This document shows, in pieces, positions 50,693-59,604 of a stretch of 64,000 bases of DNA (positions are counted from its first letter, which is position 1; each line of letters begins with the position of its first letter). The notes below the pieces were generated by a model that saw only the letters and a program-made list of their open reading frames with translations, was not told where the DNA came from and did not search any database. The position numbers were made by a program, and so were the translations under genes. Source of the stretch: Schizochytrium sp. TIO01 (Eukaryota; Sar; Bigyra; Thraustochytrida; Thraustochytriidae); assembly GCA_004764695.1 (NCBI GenBank), contig SMSO01000031.1:6939261-7003260 (forward strand), read 5' to 3'.

Positions 50693-50908
50693 AAACGAAT
50701 GATTGATTGACTGTATCATCCATCATCCGCCTCGTCCTTGCCGCGGTGATTGCAGATCGTCAACAACAGCGCGAAGGATACACGAGCCCCTAGCTGGTTG
50801 TTCGCTCCGTAGAGTTCGCCTCGTTTTTGCACCACGTTCTCTCGCGTGAAGCACTTTCTCCGGCGGCAGGTCCACAGAGACGGCGACGGAGACAGCCCAA
50901 AGGCCACC

Positions 50909-51901
50909 ATGACGGACTTCATGACCACCATGACGTACTGGAAGTGCGAGGACACTGGCCTCGTCAAGGCCCGTGACAACCAGGTATGGACCGAGAAGAA
51001 GCCCACCCAGTCCACCCGCATGAACGCACTCTGGAAGGAGGGCCGCGGCCTCTCACCGAGCCTCCCGGACGCCCAGTACTTTGAAATCACCATCTTGGAG
51101 GCGCCTGAGGGCAAGGCCAACCCGGTCTCTATTGGCCTCACGGATGAGGCTCACTTTGCTTCTGGCTGGAACTTCAAGGGCATGTCCTTCGCCGGCAACT
51201 TGAGCGACGGCAGCGGCCTCCTCGCACAGAACTTTGGCCCCGGCGTCAAGCAGGGCGACGTTGTTGGGTTGCGCATGGAGCTCGTTTTGCGCAAGAACAA
51301 GCGCTACGACCTCGAGGTCTACTACTCTGTGAACGGCGAGGGCCTCGGAAAGGCATTCTCTATCCAGGAGGTTGATATCGTCAACATTGGCGCTCTCTAC
51401 CCCGCCGTTGGCTTCAGCACTGGCCCAGCCAAGGTGGTTATTGAGCGCAAGTCTGCGCCTGAAGCCCAGACCCTTGAGCGCTCTGGAGCCGAAGACACTC
51501 GCGAGTCCGTGCAGGGAGGATGGTCCACGCCAGCATCAAGCCTTGTGGGCGAGGACTCCGATGAGCTTCCGCCCATCATCGTTAAGGTCGACTTGGAGGG
51601 TGACAACGCAACTGTCCAAGCTCGCGTTGCAAACTCCATCACCACTGGCGTCTCTGCGGAGAAGCCCCACAAGTCTTCTGGACAGGCCATGTCCACCAAG
51701 ATGATGCCTCCCCCCAAGGTTATGGCTCTCGAGGAGGCCGTCACCAGCATGCTCACCTCCATCGAGGATCTCGAGCTCGTTGACGGAACCCTCAAGATTT
51801 CTCACAGCAACGGTGAGAGCATCCAGCTTCAACCCTACGATGACCTTCACGAGCCCATTGTTATGGAGCAGATCCACTGGATGCAACGCACCGACCAGTA
51901 A
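50909..51901 (+). CDS. SPRY domain protein
   Basis: 330 residues from an ATG in a textbook context (GCCACCATGA); the upstream open frame offers only a GTG. Residues about 54-180 form a SPRY domain: AQYFEITILE, NPVSIGLTDEAHF, GWNFKGMSFAGNLSDGSG, FGPGVKQGDVVGLRM, YYSVNGEGLGKAF and LYPAVGFS follow the usual strand order of the family. SPRY domains are protein-interaction modules found in ubiquitin-ligase adaptors, RanBPM-type proteins and histone methyltransferase subunits; no second domain here decides among these. The linker 185-260 is Ser/Glu-rich. The C-terminus (about 275-330) is conserved-looking (SMLTSIEDLELVDGTLKISH, IVMEQIHWMQRTD). Codons are strikingly C/G-ending compared with neighbouring genes, which may indicate high expression. 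Confidence 0.88.
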   Translation: MTDFMTTMTYWKCEDTGLVKARDNQVWTEKKPTQSTRMNALWKEGRGLSPSLPDAQYFEITILEAPEGKANPVSIGLTDEAHFASGWNFKGMSFAGNLSDGSGLLAQNFGPGVKQGDVVGLRMELVLRKNKRYDLEVYYSVNGEGLGKAFSIQEVDIVNIGALYPAVGFSTGPAKVVIERKSAPEAQTLERSGAEDTRESVQGGWSTPASSLVGEDSDELPPIIVKVDLEGDNATVQARVANSITTGVSAEKPHKSSGQAMSTKMMPPPKVMALEEAVTSMLTSIEDLELVDGTLKISHSNGESIQLQPYDDLHEPIVMEQIHWMQRTDQ

Positions 51902-52952: not shown

Positions 52953-55900
52953 TTACAAAGGTCCAGTCTTAGACCTCTTCAAGGTCTCCTCGACACCTTC
53001 CATGGCTTGGTCAAGTGGCCGCTTGCGAGAAGCCAGAGGATATGCTCCTCCAGTGCTTGCAGCGCCAGACATGGGTTCCGCAGCAGGTGAATTGGCAACA
53101 AACGGTGACGGCGCGTACGGAGACGGCGATGGGGACACAAAAGGTGACGGCGAAGGGGAAGGTGACGGTCCAATTTGGTTATCCTGCGACCCAATGAGCG
53201 GAGGCAAACCGCACTGCGTTCGCATGGTAGGCATGCGTCGAAAGATCTTTTCATACTGCCTTCGAGCCCGCTCGAAAGTGGGTGAGCAATATCTTTCATA
53301 GATAATATCTTTGAGTTCAGGCGAGGCCATGATCGTTGTGGGTTCCATGTCGTTAGCGCTGCCAGAAAGGCTTATGAGTGCAGCACGCGCGAACTTTAGA
53401 ACCTCACTTTGAGAAAGAGTGTGCAAAGCATACTCGAGAGAGAGCAATCGAGTCAAGTGTACATGAGCCCACGCAGTCTTGGTCGGGTCAGTGTCACGCG
53501 GCGCCACTCGAAGTACCTCTGGCAGGAAAAGTGACTCAATGGCATACGTGAGAGATGAAGCAGGCAAAGGTGCTTGCTGGCCCGTACCTGAAACGTGATG
53601 AGTTACTACTCGCGCATTAGGCCCAGGACGACTTGCAAATGATTGGTAAGCTGGACCGGACGTTGTGTTTTGACGTTGTGATTGGATGAAAAAGCTTGTC
53701 ACCAGAGAATGCAAAAACGCGGGGTGCTCAGCCACAATAGCTCCTTGTTTTTTGATGAGATCTTGAATCAAAGGCAAGACAGCAACGTCGCGGTGACAAA
53801 TCCGCTGGCAGTAGAAATGAAGGACAGCATTGCGGGTAAACCAATCTGTCTTCAAAGAATCTGATATGCATGGATCAATTAAATCCTTTAATCGATGGGC
53901 ATCAATTGAACTTGAATCGCCACCGCCTGCAGGGGAGGCCTTGAGTCTAAACTCTACAGCTTCAGACATAATCAAGGCAAGTGCAGGCAAAGTACGGCGT
54001 TCTGCATCTGGTTTAAGAGGTTCAACAGTAAGCTCGTGCTGGCTTGCTTCCCGCACGAGCTGGTGCGCCCGTGACCCCACTTGCAAAAGCCATGCAATGT
54101 TCTTTGTCATGTCAGAATCGCGAGGAAGCTGTTCACGCCGAACTACATCCTCACCAATCAAGAACCAAAGGATGTTGGTGAGAGCATTGACAGTGAACCC
54201 ACTTGCCAAGATCATCGCTGCATCACTAATGGTGCGGCGATTTCGACCCGAGCTTTCAATAAAAGCAAATTTTGCTTGAAGTTCCTGTTTTATCTTTTCA
54301 CGGCGCTCATCTTCCTCTCTAGCACGTTTGCGTTCTATTTCCTCCGCAGACATACTCTTACCATTGGCAGCCGCTGCAGCAGCAACCGCAGCTTCTTCCT
54401 TTGCCTTTTCTTTACGGGCTTCCTCTTCTTCCTTAGCTTTGCGCTCCTCCTCTTTGCGTTGAGCTTCTTCAATTGCACGTTGGTGCAAAGTTGCATTTTG
54501 CAGTTTCTGGGCGGCTGCGTTTAAGTAACGTTCAGACTTATTTTTCATGATACTCCGAGCACTTTTGGCAATTTTGTGATTCATACCATTGAAAGCAATT
54601 GCGTTATCTGCAATGAGGTGCAGGTCAGCACGCATTTCATCGACGGAGTCGTACTCGCGCTGATGGATTTTGTCTTCAATAGTTTGCAAATCCATTGGTT
54701 TTTTTATCACAGCCTCGTACGCACGTTTTAATTGCGGATAGGTGACAACTACGGGGTGATGAAATGAGCGATCACGGTCCAAGTTGCGGATTTTCTTCCA
54801 AGCCTCATGAAGTACGGTAGTAAGATCAACAATTTTTTCTGGTGCCCGTGGTTGGTTGGGGTTAACGCCTCCTCCTCCTGCCTTGGTGTTGATAGGTCCA
54901 TTTGCAAATACTTGGTTTGCCGAGGAATAAATGTCTGAAGTTGATGCAAAGGCCGATGCAAGTCCGGGTTTGTGTTTGCCGTTGAGGATCTTTGTTAGCT
55001 CGTTAACCACAGTACGCTGCAGCGTCGCAACATTTATATCGAGTGATGCGCGAGCAACATGAATGCAGATTTTCTTAACATAGGCATCGAGGTGCCATGC
55101 AAAGTCATGACAAGGTTCTGTTGCCAAAACAGTTTGCTGGGCATTGATGTCGTGTAGACCCATGAGCAGATCCGCTCGAAGAGCACAAAGGCGGAGATTT
55201 CCCGATTCTGCGAAGAGCTCCCTCACCCGGTCAGTAATAAACCTGTATAGTTTTGCCGACGACCCAATAGATCGAATGAGCTCTTGCAGCGGAGTGCTTT
55301 TTTGGCGTCGTTTGTGTGGCTGAGGGAAATTCACATCAGGAAACATTTCATCACACCATGTAGTAGCAGCCGAGTCGTGCACGAACCTGTCAATGATGGG
55401 TTCCACGTGTGCCATATACGTTTGAGGGTACTCCTCCCAAAGGACCTGACGTGTATGCTGAGGTAGTTTCTCGAGTGCCGCAGAATCCAACTGACTTAGT
55501 TGCTCCAAAACCGCTGCAGAAGGCTCTGTCGTAGCTGCCAAAATTTTGAGCGGAATCTCCTCCAATGTCGGATGTGCCAAAAGCGGAAGTGTCTCTTCCA
55601 GCAGGGCTCGGAGTTGGGCTGGAGTTGCAGATTTTACTTGCGTAAGGAGCTTTGCCTTGAGATTTTGAAAAAGACCTCGCATGAGCTCATTTCTGCGCAT
55701 TCCAAGTACCTCTAGAAGCCAAAACACAGGCTCGCAACCTACAAGCGCGCTCCCATGTTCTCGCTGGAGACTATCAATAAAGGCGAGCGGGTCCTTGGAA
55801 ATCGAGAGTCCACGTCTAACAAAATCTTGTGAAAGCAAAAGGCCCCTTTCTGCGTCGTTCTCAAGGTCTTCAAGACTGTTGTTGTCGTCGTTGTCCTCGT

Positions 55901-55979
55901 CGCCATGACCGCCATCCTCGTGATCTTGGAGACCCTCTGCGTTGCAGGTCGCCTCGGACATGTCTACGTCCTCGCCCAT
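52953..55979 (-). CDS. NELFB: NELF-B (COBRA1) homolog with an embedded bromodomain
   Basis: 1008 residues from the first ATG of the frame. An acidic leader (1-45) is followed by the first NELF-B half to about 310: SAKLYRFITDRVRELF, LRLCALRADLLMGLHDIN (263-280) and PCHDFAWHLDAYVKK match the family's most conserved stretch. A bromodomain then occupies about 384-487, with YEAVIKKPMDLQTIEDKI in the ZA region and NAIAFNGMNHKIAKSA with N464 at the acetyl-lysine-binding position (Phe in place of the common preceding Tyr). A long Glu/Lys/Ala/Arg helix, probably coiled coil, follows (497-574). The second NELF-B half resumes at about 585 (DAAMILASGFTVNALTNILW, QLPRDSDM). The tail has SP repeats and a bipartite basic signal near the end. 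NELF-B is a core subunit of the complex that holds RNA polymerase II at promoter-proximal pauses; human NELF-B is about 580 residues and has no bromodomain. The continuous frame supports one polypeptide. Confidence 0.88.
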   Translation of the reverse strand: MGEDVDMSEATCNAEGLQDHEDGGHGDEDNDDNNSLEDLENDAERGLLLSQDFVRRGLSISKDPLAFIDSLQREHGSALVGCEPVFWLLEVLGMRRNELMRGLFQNLKAKLLTQVKSATPAQLRALLEETLPLLAHPTLEEIPLKILAATTEPSAAVLEQLSQLDSAALEKLPQHTRQVLWEEYPQTYMAHVEPIIDRFVHDSAATTWCDEMFPDVNFPQPHKRRQKSTPLQELIRSIGSSAKLYRFITDRVRELFAESGNLRLCALRADLLMGLHDINAQQTVLATEPCHDFAWHLDAYVKKICIHVARASLDINVATLQRTVVNELTKILNGKHKPGLASAFASTSDIYSSANQVFANGPINTKAGGGGVNPNQPRAPEKIVDLTTVLHEAWKKIRNLDRDRSFHHPVVVTYPQLKRAYEAVIKKPMDLQTIEDKIHQREYDSVDEMRADLHLIADNAIAFNGMNHKIAKSARSIMKNKSERYLNAAAQKLQNATLHQRAIEEAQRKEEERKAKEEEEARKEKAKEEAAVAAAAAANGKSMSAEEIERKRAREEDERREKIKQELQAKFAFIESSGRNRRTISDAAMILASGFTVNALTNILWFLIGEDVVRREQLPRDSDMTKNIAWLLQVGSRAHQLVREASQHELTVEPLKPDAERRTLPALALIMSEAVEFRLKASPAGGGDSSSIDAHRLKDLIDPCISDSLKTDWFTRNAVLHFYCQRICHRDVAVLPLIQDLIKKQGAIVAEHPAFLHSLVTSFFIQSQRQNTTSGPAYQSFASRPGPNARVVTHHVSGTGQQAPLPASSLTYAIESLFLPEVLRVAPRDTDPTKTAWAHVHLTRLLSLEYALHTLSQSEVLKFARAALISLSGSANDMEPTTIMASPELKDIIYERYCSPTFERARRQYEKIFRRMPTMRTQCGLPPLIGSQDNQIGPSPSPSPSPFVSPSPSPYAPSPFVANSPAAEPMSGAASTGGAYPLASRKRPLDQAMEGVEETLKRSKTGPL

Positions 55980-57897: not shown

Positions 57898-59604
57898 TTA
57901 GAGCTCAACCTGCTCAGGGCGGTGCTGCTCGTAGACACCAATCTGAGTCATGAGGTCATGGAAGTACTCTGAGTTCTGGAAGCGAGCAAAGGTATCCTTG
58001 TTCATGAGACTGAATACCTCACGTTTGGCATCCGAGAACATCTTAAAGTCGAACTTTCCAGCGTCAACCTTGGCCTTGATGGCAGCGACAATAGGAGCTG
58101 GCAAGTTAACCTGGTTAGGCGCATCCTCGGCAATGTAGTTGTTGTAAATTTCCATAGCCTGCTCACGAAGCATGGCCTGCTTCTTGTCAGTGATGACACT
58201 AGCCTCGACGTGAAGAGCACCAAGCACAGACTTGCGCACACGGCGTCTGGAGATGTTCTCAAGTTTTTCTACAGCGGCCCAGAAATCGACGTTCTCAGTG
58301 GCAAACTCCTTGGCAATGTGTTTCTGGAAAGCCTCTCGGCCAAGGTGGTGACGAAGGACGTCCTCCAAGGTGGCACGGGATCCAAGAACACGGAGAGAAA
58401 TTTCCGCCAACACAGCGGGTTCGCCGACAAAGAGTGCACGGAAGTCCTCCTGGGAGCATTCAAGCATGTAAGCGTCCTCCTCGTCAGAGACCTTGACAGT
58501 GGCCGAGTGAGGGGAGTCAGATACAAGACTGATCTCACCAAAGTAGCCGCCAGGTCCAAGTCTGCGGACGTGGTTGCCGCCAACAAAGACATCCACTGAT
58601 CCACGCGTAATAATGAAAAACTTGCGTGGGGTAGTGCCGCCCTCCTCGAGGATAATAGATCCGTGCGGGTGTCTGTTCATGGCGCAGACCTCAGCAAGTA
58701 AGTGCTGCTTGCGCTTGGACAACGACTTGAACACAGGGATCTTCTCAGAGACAACGTTGACGGTGGCACGCTCATTAACGCTGCGTTCGAGACGCTCACC
58801 GAGCGTGGGGAGAGACTTGATGAAGTAGCCAAACTCTTCGCGGCCCAACGAGAAGAGCACACATTCCTCAAGAGTGGTGATGGTGGCGTTACGAGGCTGA
58901 TCCTTGAGCAGCGAAAGCTCTCCAAAGGTGTCACCAGGCTTGAGACGAGTGAGCTCCACGTACAGTCCAAGTTCATCCTGGGTGGTGACCACAAGAGATC
59001 CACGCGAAAGAATGTAGAAGCGGTCACCGACCTCACCTTCATGGATGATGGTGGTACCCTTAGGGAGGACCTCGCACTTGAAGAGACGACCGATGAGGTT
59101 AAGCTGCTTCTCGTTGACGTCACTGAGGAAATCAATCTCGCGGAGACCACTTGCGACGATGGAGCTCGCTGTAGCGTTAACCCAGCGCTGAAGATTCTTC
59201 AGGCAAGCATCGTTCTTATACTTGTCATAGACGCTGCGCGGAAGCACAAGCAGGACCACATCGGAGATGGCGTCCACAGAAACAGAGCGAGGGGTATCGT
59301 AGATCAGTCCAAACTCGCCGAAGGCCTCGTTGGCGGACATCATGCGAATCTTCTTCTTAGATCCATCTTCTCCCTCAGCGATGAAGTTGACGGCGCCCTT
59401 GGCAATGAGGAAGAGCTCGTCGGCCTTATCTCCCTGTGTGATGATGCGGTCTCCCTGGTTGTAGCGGCGCACCGTGAATTTCTTCGCGGCCTGGGCGACG
59501 TGTGCCGGGGAGAGGTTTCTGAAGAAGGTGTTTTCGGCGAGGAAGTCCTTGACCGAGAGGTCCTCGTCAATCATTTCATCGGGCTTGGAGCCTGAGCAAC
59601 CCAT
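57898..59604 (-). CDS. Acylated protein with three cyclic-nucleotide-binding domains and an RGS domain
   Basis: 568 residues. The N-terminus MGCSGSK fits N-myristoylation at Gly2 with palmitoylation at Cys3, so membrane attachment is likely. Three cyclic-nucleotide-binding (CNB) domains follow: about 27-130 (cassette FGEFGLIYDTPRSVSV, E97/R106), 158-265 (FGELSLLKDQPRNATI, E229/R238) and 290-395 (FGEISLVSDSPHSATV, E357 but His366 where Arg should contact the phosphate). Residues 411-555 form an RGS domain (TLEDVLRHHLGREAFQKHIA, then EFATENVDFWAAVEKLE; C-terminal FSLMNKDTFARFQNSEYFHD). RGS domains speed GTP hydrolysis by G-alpha subunits. There is no kinase domain, and no inhibitor sequence like that of PKA regulatory subunits was identified. 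The layout suggests a cyclic-nucleotide-controlled terminator of G-protein signalling; this is inference. Codons are strongly C/G-ending, suggesting good expression. Confidence 0.93.
   Translation of the reverse strand: MGCSGSKPDEMIDEDLSVKDFLAENTFFRNLSPAHVAQAAKKFTVRRYNQGDRIITQGDKADELFLIAKGAVNFIAEGEDGSKKKIRMMSANEAFGEFGLIYDTPRSVSVDAISDVVLLVLPRSVYDKYKNDACLKNLQRWVNATASSIVASGLREIDFLSDVNEKQLNLIGRLFKCEVLPKGTTIIHEGEVGDRFYILSRGSLVVTTQDELGLYVELTRLKPGDTFGELSLLKDQPRNATITTLEECVLFSLGREEFGYFIKSLPTLGERLERSVNERATVNVVSEKIPVFKSLSKRKQHLLAEVCAMNRHPHGSIILEEGGTTPRKFFIITRGSVDVFVGGNHVRRLGPGGYFGEISLVSDSPHSATVKVSDEEDAYMLECSQEDFRALFVGEPAVLAEISLRVLGSRATLEDVLRHHLGREAFQKHIAKEFATENVDFWAAVEKLENISRRRVRKSVLGALHVEASVITDKKQAMLREQAMEIYNNYIAEDAPNQVNLPAPIVAAIKAKVDAGKFDFKMFSDAKREVFSLMNKDTFARFQNSEYFHDLMTQIGVYEQHRPEQVEL

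Follow-up and report, generated by a model that had tools for sequence, protein, structure and literature searches.

The negative elongation factor (NELF), which keeps RNA polymerase back at gene starts, is not known to sense chromatin other than through partner proteins, and the BET protein BRD4 has a role in pausing. Crosslinks divide human NELF-B (PMC4940160) into an N-terminal module of residues 85-291, followed by the hinge at 291-438 and the C-terminal module at 438-519, and the NELF-BE lobe is reported to form the downstream edge of the mammalian complex, near the nucleosome (PMC11881899). NELF has been called metazoan-specific (PMC11881899), and NELF-E is reported in metazoans only (PMC11482795). 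Recognition of acetylated histones has been reported for the bromodomains of TAF1, a component of TFIID, and the first one (BD1) carries a basic RKR patch for DNA (PMC12599243).

The window analysed here, a stretch of 64,000 nucleotides from Schizochytrium sp. TIO01, one of the marine, single-celled thraustochytrids, contains a homologue of NELF-B in which a bromodomain interrupts the COBRA1 domain (Table 1). The frame runs from ATG to stop without interruption, and an alternative TTG start upstream gives a reading of 1029 aa, which was used in some searches (subtracting 21 gives the 1008-aa numbering). With the 1029-aa version, Pfam matched COBRA1 in two stretches (94.6 bits, E 7.9e-27; curated cut-off 22) and Bromodomain between them (67.2 bits against a cut-off of 21.7, E 1.3e-18; 413-496 in the 1029 numbering), in frame and without stops. 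When the 64-Mb genome was searched in all six frames, COBRA1 matched at this gene alone, where profile positions 35-174 (75.7 bits) and 172-283 (23.5 bits; cut-off 22) flank the bromodomain; that is, the profile breaks at a single point and picks up again at the same point. These results bear out the initial annotation, which had described a NELF-B homolog with a bromodomain built into one uninterrupted frame. Chance similarity to COBRA1 or Bromodomain was rejected on the E-values and on the architecture common to the relatives.

Table 1. Features of the NELF-B homologue, with coordinates in the window and residues in the 1008-aa numbering.
Feature	Residues	Coordinates	Strand	Remarks
NELF-B homologue with internal bromodomain		52953..55979	(-)	single open frame, 1008 aa
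N-terminal NELF-B/COBRA1 half	54-310	55050..55820	(-)	aligns to solved NELF-B 16-279
First linker	311-384	54828..55049	(-)	poorly conserved; 8/74 columns invariant, 5 rows
Bromodomain	385-480 (Pfam part 392-475)	54540..54827	(-)	N464, Y421, F463, PMD 428-430
Charged second linker	481-580	54240..54539	(-)	variable length and make-up; 9/100 columns invariant, 5 rows
C-terminal NELF-B/COBRA1 half	581-764 (approximate borders)	53688..54239	(-)	solved NELF-B about 295-465
Further C-terminal region	765-935	53175..53687	(-)	conserved among relatives; no Pfam match
Ser-Pro repeat tail	939-965	53085..53165	(-)	in 4 full-length members compared
Bipartite nuclear-localisation-like basic stretch (putative)	985-1004	52968..53027	(-)	by eye

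Among the closest known proteins are the solved NELF-B chains (PDB 7ycx chain f and 8uhg chain V), which we take to be human and in which the two COBRA1 halves follow each other as they do here. The single-sequence match covers 16-279 of the solved chains (query 75-331 in the 1029 numbering) and then 282-357, and a profile of five rows aligned to 14-276 and, beyond the bromodomain module, to 294-465. Depending on the alignment, the gap between the halves is thus 2 to 17 residues in solved NELF-B and about 255 to 276 here. The halves had been described as directly adjacent in known NELF-B proteins, which agrees with the 17 residues that separate them in the solved chains, against about 270 here including the bromodomain. 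By alignment, the insertion sits at the border between the N-terminal module and the hinge of human NELF-B.

A COBRA1 match was found on each side of the bromodomain, and the C half is the weaker side. Cut out alone, it scored 20.9 bits, just below the COBRA1 cut-off of 22, and its separate i-Evalue against solved NELF-B in phmmer was 9. At E<=0.1, 4 of the 5 C halves matched COBRA1, and a profile built from all five returned 8 PDB rows with E<=1, 6 of which are NELF-B (E 7.6e-4 to 9.4e-4), the remaining two being DIS3-like exonuclease (E 0.86 and 0.9); NELF-B is the sole significant solved match of this profile. Since both halves score, we take the COBRA1 domain, which is split by about 270 residues, as an architecture variant and not as a loss of NELF-B membership.

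Protein searches yielded at least five relatives from 8000 scored candidates, 3 from 5336 and 5 from 434, and it turned out that these were always the same five proteins, 42-99% identical to the query over the covered part. All of them (5 of 5) carry both COBRA1 and Bromodomain in Pfam, so the architecture looked for elsewhere is found in every database relative retrieved; animal NELF-B is not among these, and the set bears no evidence on the fusion in other lineages. P0001 adds little, being 99% identical to the query over 97% of its length. P0002 (64% over 94%) comes from the thraustochytrid Hondaea fermentalgiana (Labyrinthulomycetes) and is named Negative elongation factor B; it has the same architecture as the window protein, but its first linker is longer and its second linker richer in Pro/Gly. 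The others are 42% identical over 93%, 43% over 87% and 48% over 67% of the query. P0005 (684 aa) seems to be partial, and P0003 has a single COBRA1 stretch only, on the N side.

Over five rows (the window protein and P0002-P0005), 77 of 266 columns are invariant in the N half, 31 of 96 in the bromodomain and 41 of 184 in the C half, compared with the linker fractions in Table 1, and segment-wise pairwise identities agree with this pattern. Between the window protein and P0001 there are 7 substitutions, none of them within residues 385-480. The bromodomain is therefore conserved like the NELF-B halves, and the linkers are not; the module of ~270 residues consists of two variable linkers flanking a single conserved bromodomain. 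GC3 ranges from 0.34 to 0.46 across the segments with its minimum in the charged linker, and the overall GC of the flanks is 0.35-0.37, which is weak evidence either way.

The second linker had been taken for a long charged helix. Its i+3/i+4 salt-bridge pairs exceed those of shuffled sequences clearly in the window protein (41 vs 19.8), P0004 (45 vs 31.1) and P0002 (25 vs 14.1, with 10 Pro/Gly), and less so in P0003 (12 vs 10.2) and P0005 (18 vs 14.9). The charge stands, but with an excess so uneven among relatives the segment is better described as a variable linker than as a constant helix, and a rigid charged lever arm was rejected as a constant feature, not being kept in all relatives. 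The sole NCBIfam match, which covers the charged linker, is to a transposase model and far below threshold (14.2 bits, where the cut-off is 270); it was disregarded.

The acetyl-lysine pocket is canonical as judged from its motifs. Residues F406, P409, V410, Y421, P428-M429-D430, Y443, D452, N459, F463 and N464 of the pocket and ZA loop are invariant in the five rows; among these, N464 had already been pointed out in the initial annotation. The roles of such residues follow the consensus given in PMC3326523, and the correspondence to that consensus is our own reading of the motifs. Because the pocket is canonical, binding of acetyl-lysine by this bromodomain is likely.

As for its kinship, the best solved matches of the bromodomain are polybromo and the TAF1 bromodomains (PDB 3uv5 and 1eqf). 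The top E-value of polybromo sums several weaker domains, the best single one scoring 29.8 bits vs 42.9 for TAF1 BD1, and for all 5 rows human TAF1 BD1 ranks first or second among the matches. The motif YNGPKH of TAF1 BD1 resembles FNGPKH in P0002, P0004 and P0005, and differs more from FNGMNH in the window protein; besides, the loop is 3 residues longer in the alignment with TAF1. The genome contains 33 bromodomain matches, 30 of them with loci, including the NELF-B gene itself. The closest of the 29 others to each of the five rows is L030, from a polybromo-like region of the contig that also carries the NELF-B gene. When these 29 are placed in a tree together with the five NELF-B rows, NELF-B joins L030 with 98/99, the NELF-B rows holding together with 75/89. 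In a tree of 27 rows, for which two human TAF1 domains were added and nine long rows dropped, NELF-B, TAF1 and the TAF1-like L022 are grouped with 95/92, and L030 lies elsewhere on a long branch. An origin from the polybromo-like gene, suggested by the first tree, is not upheld in the second and was rejected; an affinity to TAF1 is likely but not settled. Human TAF1 has two such domains, within TFIID; here a single one lies inside a pausing factor.

Two loci of this genome deserve mention beside these trees. The polybromo-like region L046 (G000 C30:7984000-7993500), at a distance of about 1 Mb from NELF-B, has two long frames that overlap, one containing 4 bromodomain stretches and the other 2, and it is its L030 domain that resembles the NELF-B bromodomain. 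The TAF1-like locus L047:3872-9499:-, recognised by a DUF3591 match, has a single bromodomain match vs two bromodomains in human TAF1, and its frame reaches the end of the stretch examined.

Among the partners expected for a pausing factor, NELF-C/D (TH1) occurs twice, in copies that agree at 1101 of 1111 residues and are perhaps two haplotypes, and genes for Spt5 and Spt4 are present as well. The NELF-A_N, HEXIM and INT_SG_DDX_CT_C profiles, the last of which we take as a mark of INTS6, had no match in the genome, but controls were equally silent, so this does not amount to absence. The label metazoan-specific is contradicted for the two core NELF subunits by the NELF-B gene described here and by a published survey of NELF, whose main text mentions neither a bromodomain nor a stramenopile.

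The N-terminal extension of NELF-C/D contains a WW-like stretch at residues 204-231 (L041:1795-5127:+ and the near-identical copy L042:1926-5258:+; G000 C14 and C6). In the L041 copy it scores 17.6 bits with Pfam WW (E 0.0041), short of the 26.9 bits required, and it matches the YAP2 WW domain in PDB (E 0.0065). It is a possible second reader domain on NELF. In the NELF-B tails of the 4 full-length members, SP/TP motifs number 9, 11, 12 and 11, and shuffled tails average 2.6-3.6 and reach 7-9 at most; judged from these motifs, the tail is a possible kinase target. Near the NELF-B gene, the frame 57898-59604(-) combines three cyclic-nucleotide-binding stretches with an RGS domain, and 50846-51901(+) has a match to the META domain (30.2 bits vs a cut-off of 24), a family found mainly in bacteria.

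The BET proteins of BRD4 type resemble the NELF-B homologue in having a bromodomain on a pausing-linked protein, but they are separate proteins in this genome and carry an ET domain, for which the NELF-B homologue itself gave no match (ET/BET in Pfam, E<=1). Three ET-domain matches were found in the genome. One frame of 646 aa contains a bromodomain and ET; a second BET-type locus, L043:2099-4220:-, has them in different neighbouring frames, probably with an intron or frame break in between; and the third match lies in a zinc-finger frame (27.3 bits, just above the cut-off of 24.5). The initial annotation had suggested that the bromodomain on NELF-B would replace the indirect link through BET proteins. 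This is not supported: the genome keeps BET-type proteins, so nothing seen here calls for a substitute, and replacement of BET by the NELF-B bromodomain was rejected.

We propose that the NELF core may contact acetylated chromatin through the bromodomain of NELF-B, which would bias NELF at acetylated promoters, and we give this reading a probability of roughly 60%. NELF-B and NELF-C/D would form the core pausing complex on RNA polymerase II, provided that polymerase pausing occurs in Schizochytrium sp. TIO01. The placement of the bromodomain we infer from the sequence alignment and from papers on the mammalian complex: held on two flexible linkers, it would hang from the NELF-B lobe, which would be the downstream edge facing the nucleosome as in mammals. 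Because the NELF-BE lobe is near the nucleosome there, the bromodomain could reach histone tails, probably those of the +1 nucleosome, and may bind acetyl-lysine on them. The lobe may differ here, since NELF-E, a part of it, is reported only in metazoans. A candidate ligand would be a histone tail, perhaps that of H4, which is a ligand of TAF1 bromodomains, or an acetylated transcription factor. NELF would thereby be held or placed at acetylated promoters, and histone acetylation would bear directly on pause residence or release, either by prolonging the pause or by aiding release.

The main rival to histone-tail reading is that the folded bromodomain reads an acetylated non-histone partner, such as Spt5, the polymerase or NELF-C/D, and works inside the complex instead of tethering it to chromatin. 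We consider this unlikely, though bromodomains are reported to bind acetylated non-histone proteins as well (PMC3717722) and the insertion adjoins human K278, which is crosslinked to NELF-A and NELF-C (PMC4940160), so that it may sit near NELF-C/D. In mammals the lobe is reported to lie close to the nucleosome (PMC11881899), and TAF1 bromodomains reportedly recognise acetylated histones (PMC12599243); both points speak for a histone tail instead. As NELFB has a reported cytoplasmic role (PMC10591015), a non-chromatin role is also possible.

It is less probable still that the bromodomain has a mostly structural function or contacts nucleosomal DNA, depending little on acetyl-lysine, as the basic patch of TAF1 BD1 does. 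In our own reading of the alignment, the positions of the RKR patch are occupied by RKR in P0005 and by RRK, VKR and RKD in P0002, P0003 and P0004, so the patch is kept fully or partly in the relatives, but the window protein (HQR) keeps only one of the three basic residues, and an invariant acetyl-lysine pocket would be needless for pure DNA binding. A gene-model artefact, that is, two genes or a misread intron whose mature protein lacks the bromodomain, can practically be dismissed: introns or frame breaks seem present elsewhere in the genome, as between the L043 frames, but a removing intron is disfavoured because this frame is continuous and the domain matches the halves in conservation. 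In addition, both domains occur in all five database records, which come from several sources, and the gene is the sole COBRA1 locus found. On this comparison of sequences, the insertion is an old, selected feature.

Returning to histone-tail reading, a wider and doubtful extension of it is that the thraustochytrid NELF core has been rebuilt as a chromatin- and phospho-sensing brake. The TAF1-like bromodomain of NELF-B would tie the pause to the acetylated +1 nucleosome, the WW-like domain of NELF-C/D would read phospho-Ser-Pro or proline motifs, and the Ser-Pro tail of NELF-B would be the kinase target for release, so that together they take over what NELF-A and NELF-E do elsewhere.

The fusion had been thought undescribed. 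Among the literature matches listed, none describes it, but the architecture is already visible in databases, where the P0002 record lists both Pfam domains. In conclusion, the fusion is firm as anatomy, and the mechanism given here is a proposal. If acetyl-lysine binding is true, NELF-B with a conserved built-in pocket would have acetylation wired directly into a pausing factor, and a point mutation of N464 could separate acetylation sensing from pausing. The gene also shows that extra domains can be accommodated in the NELF core, a point relevant to how pausing gained regulation in evolution.
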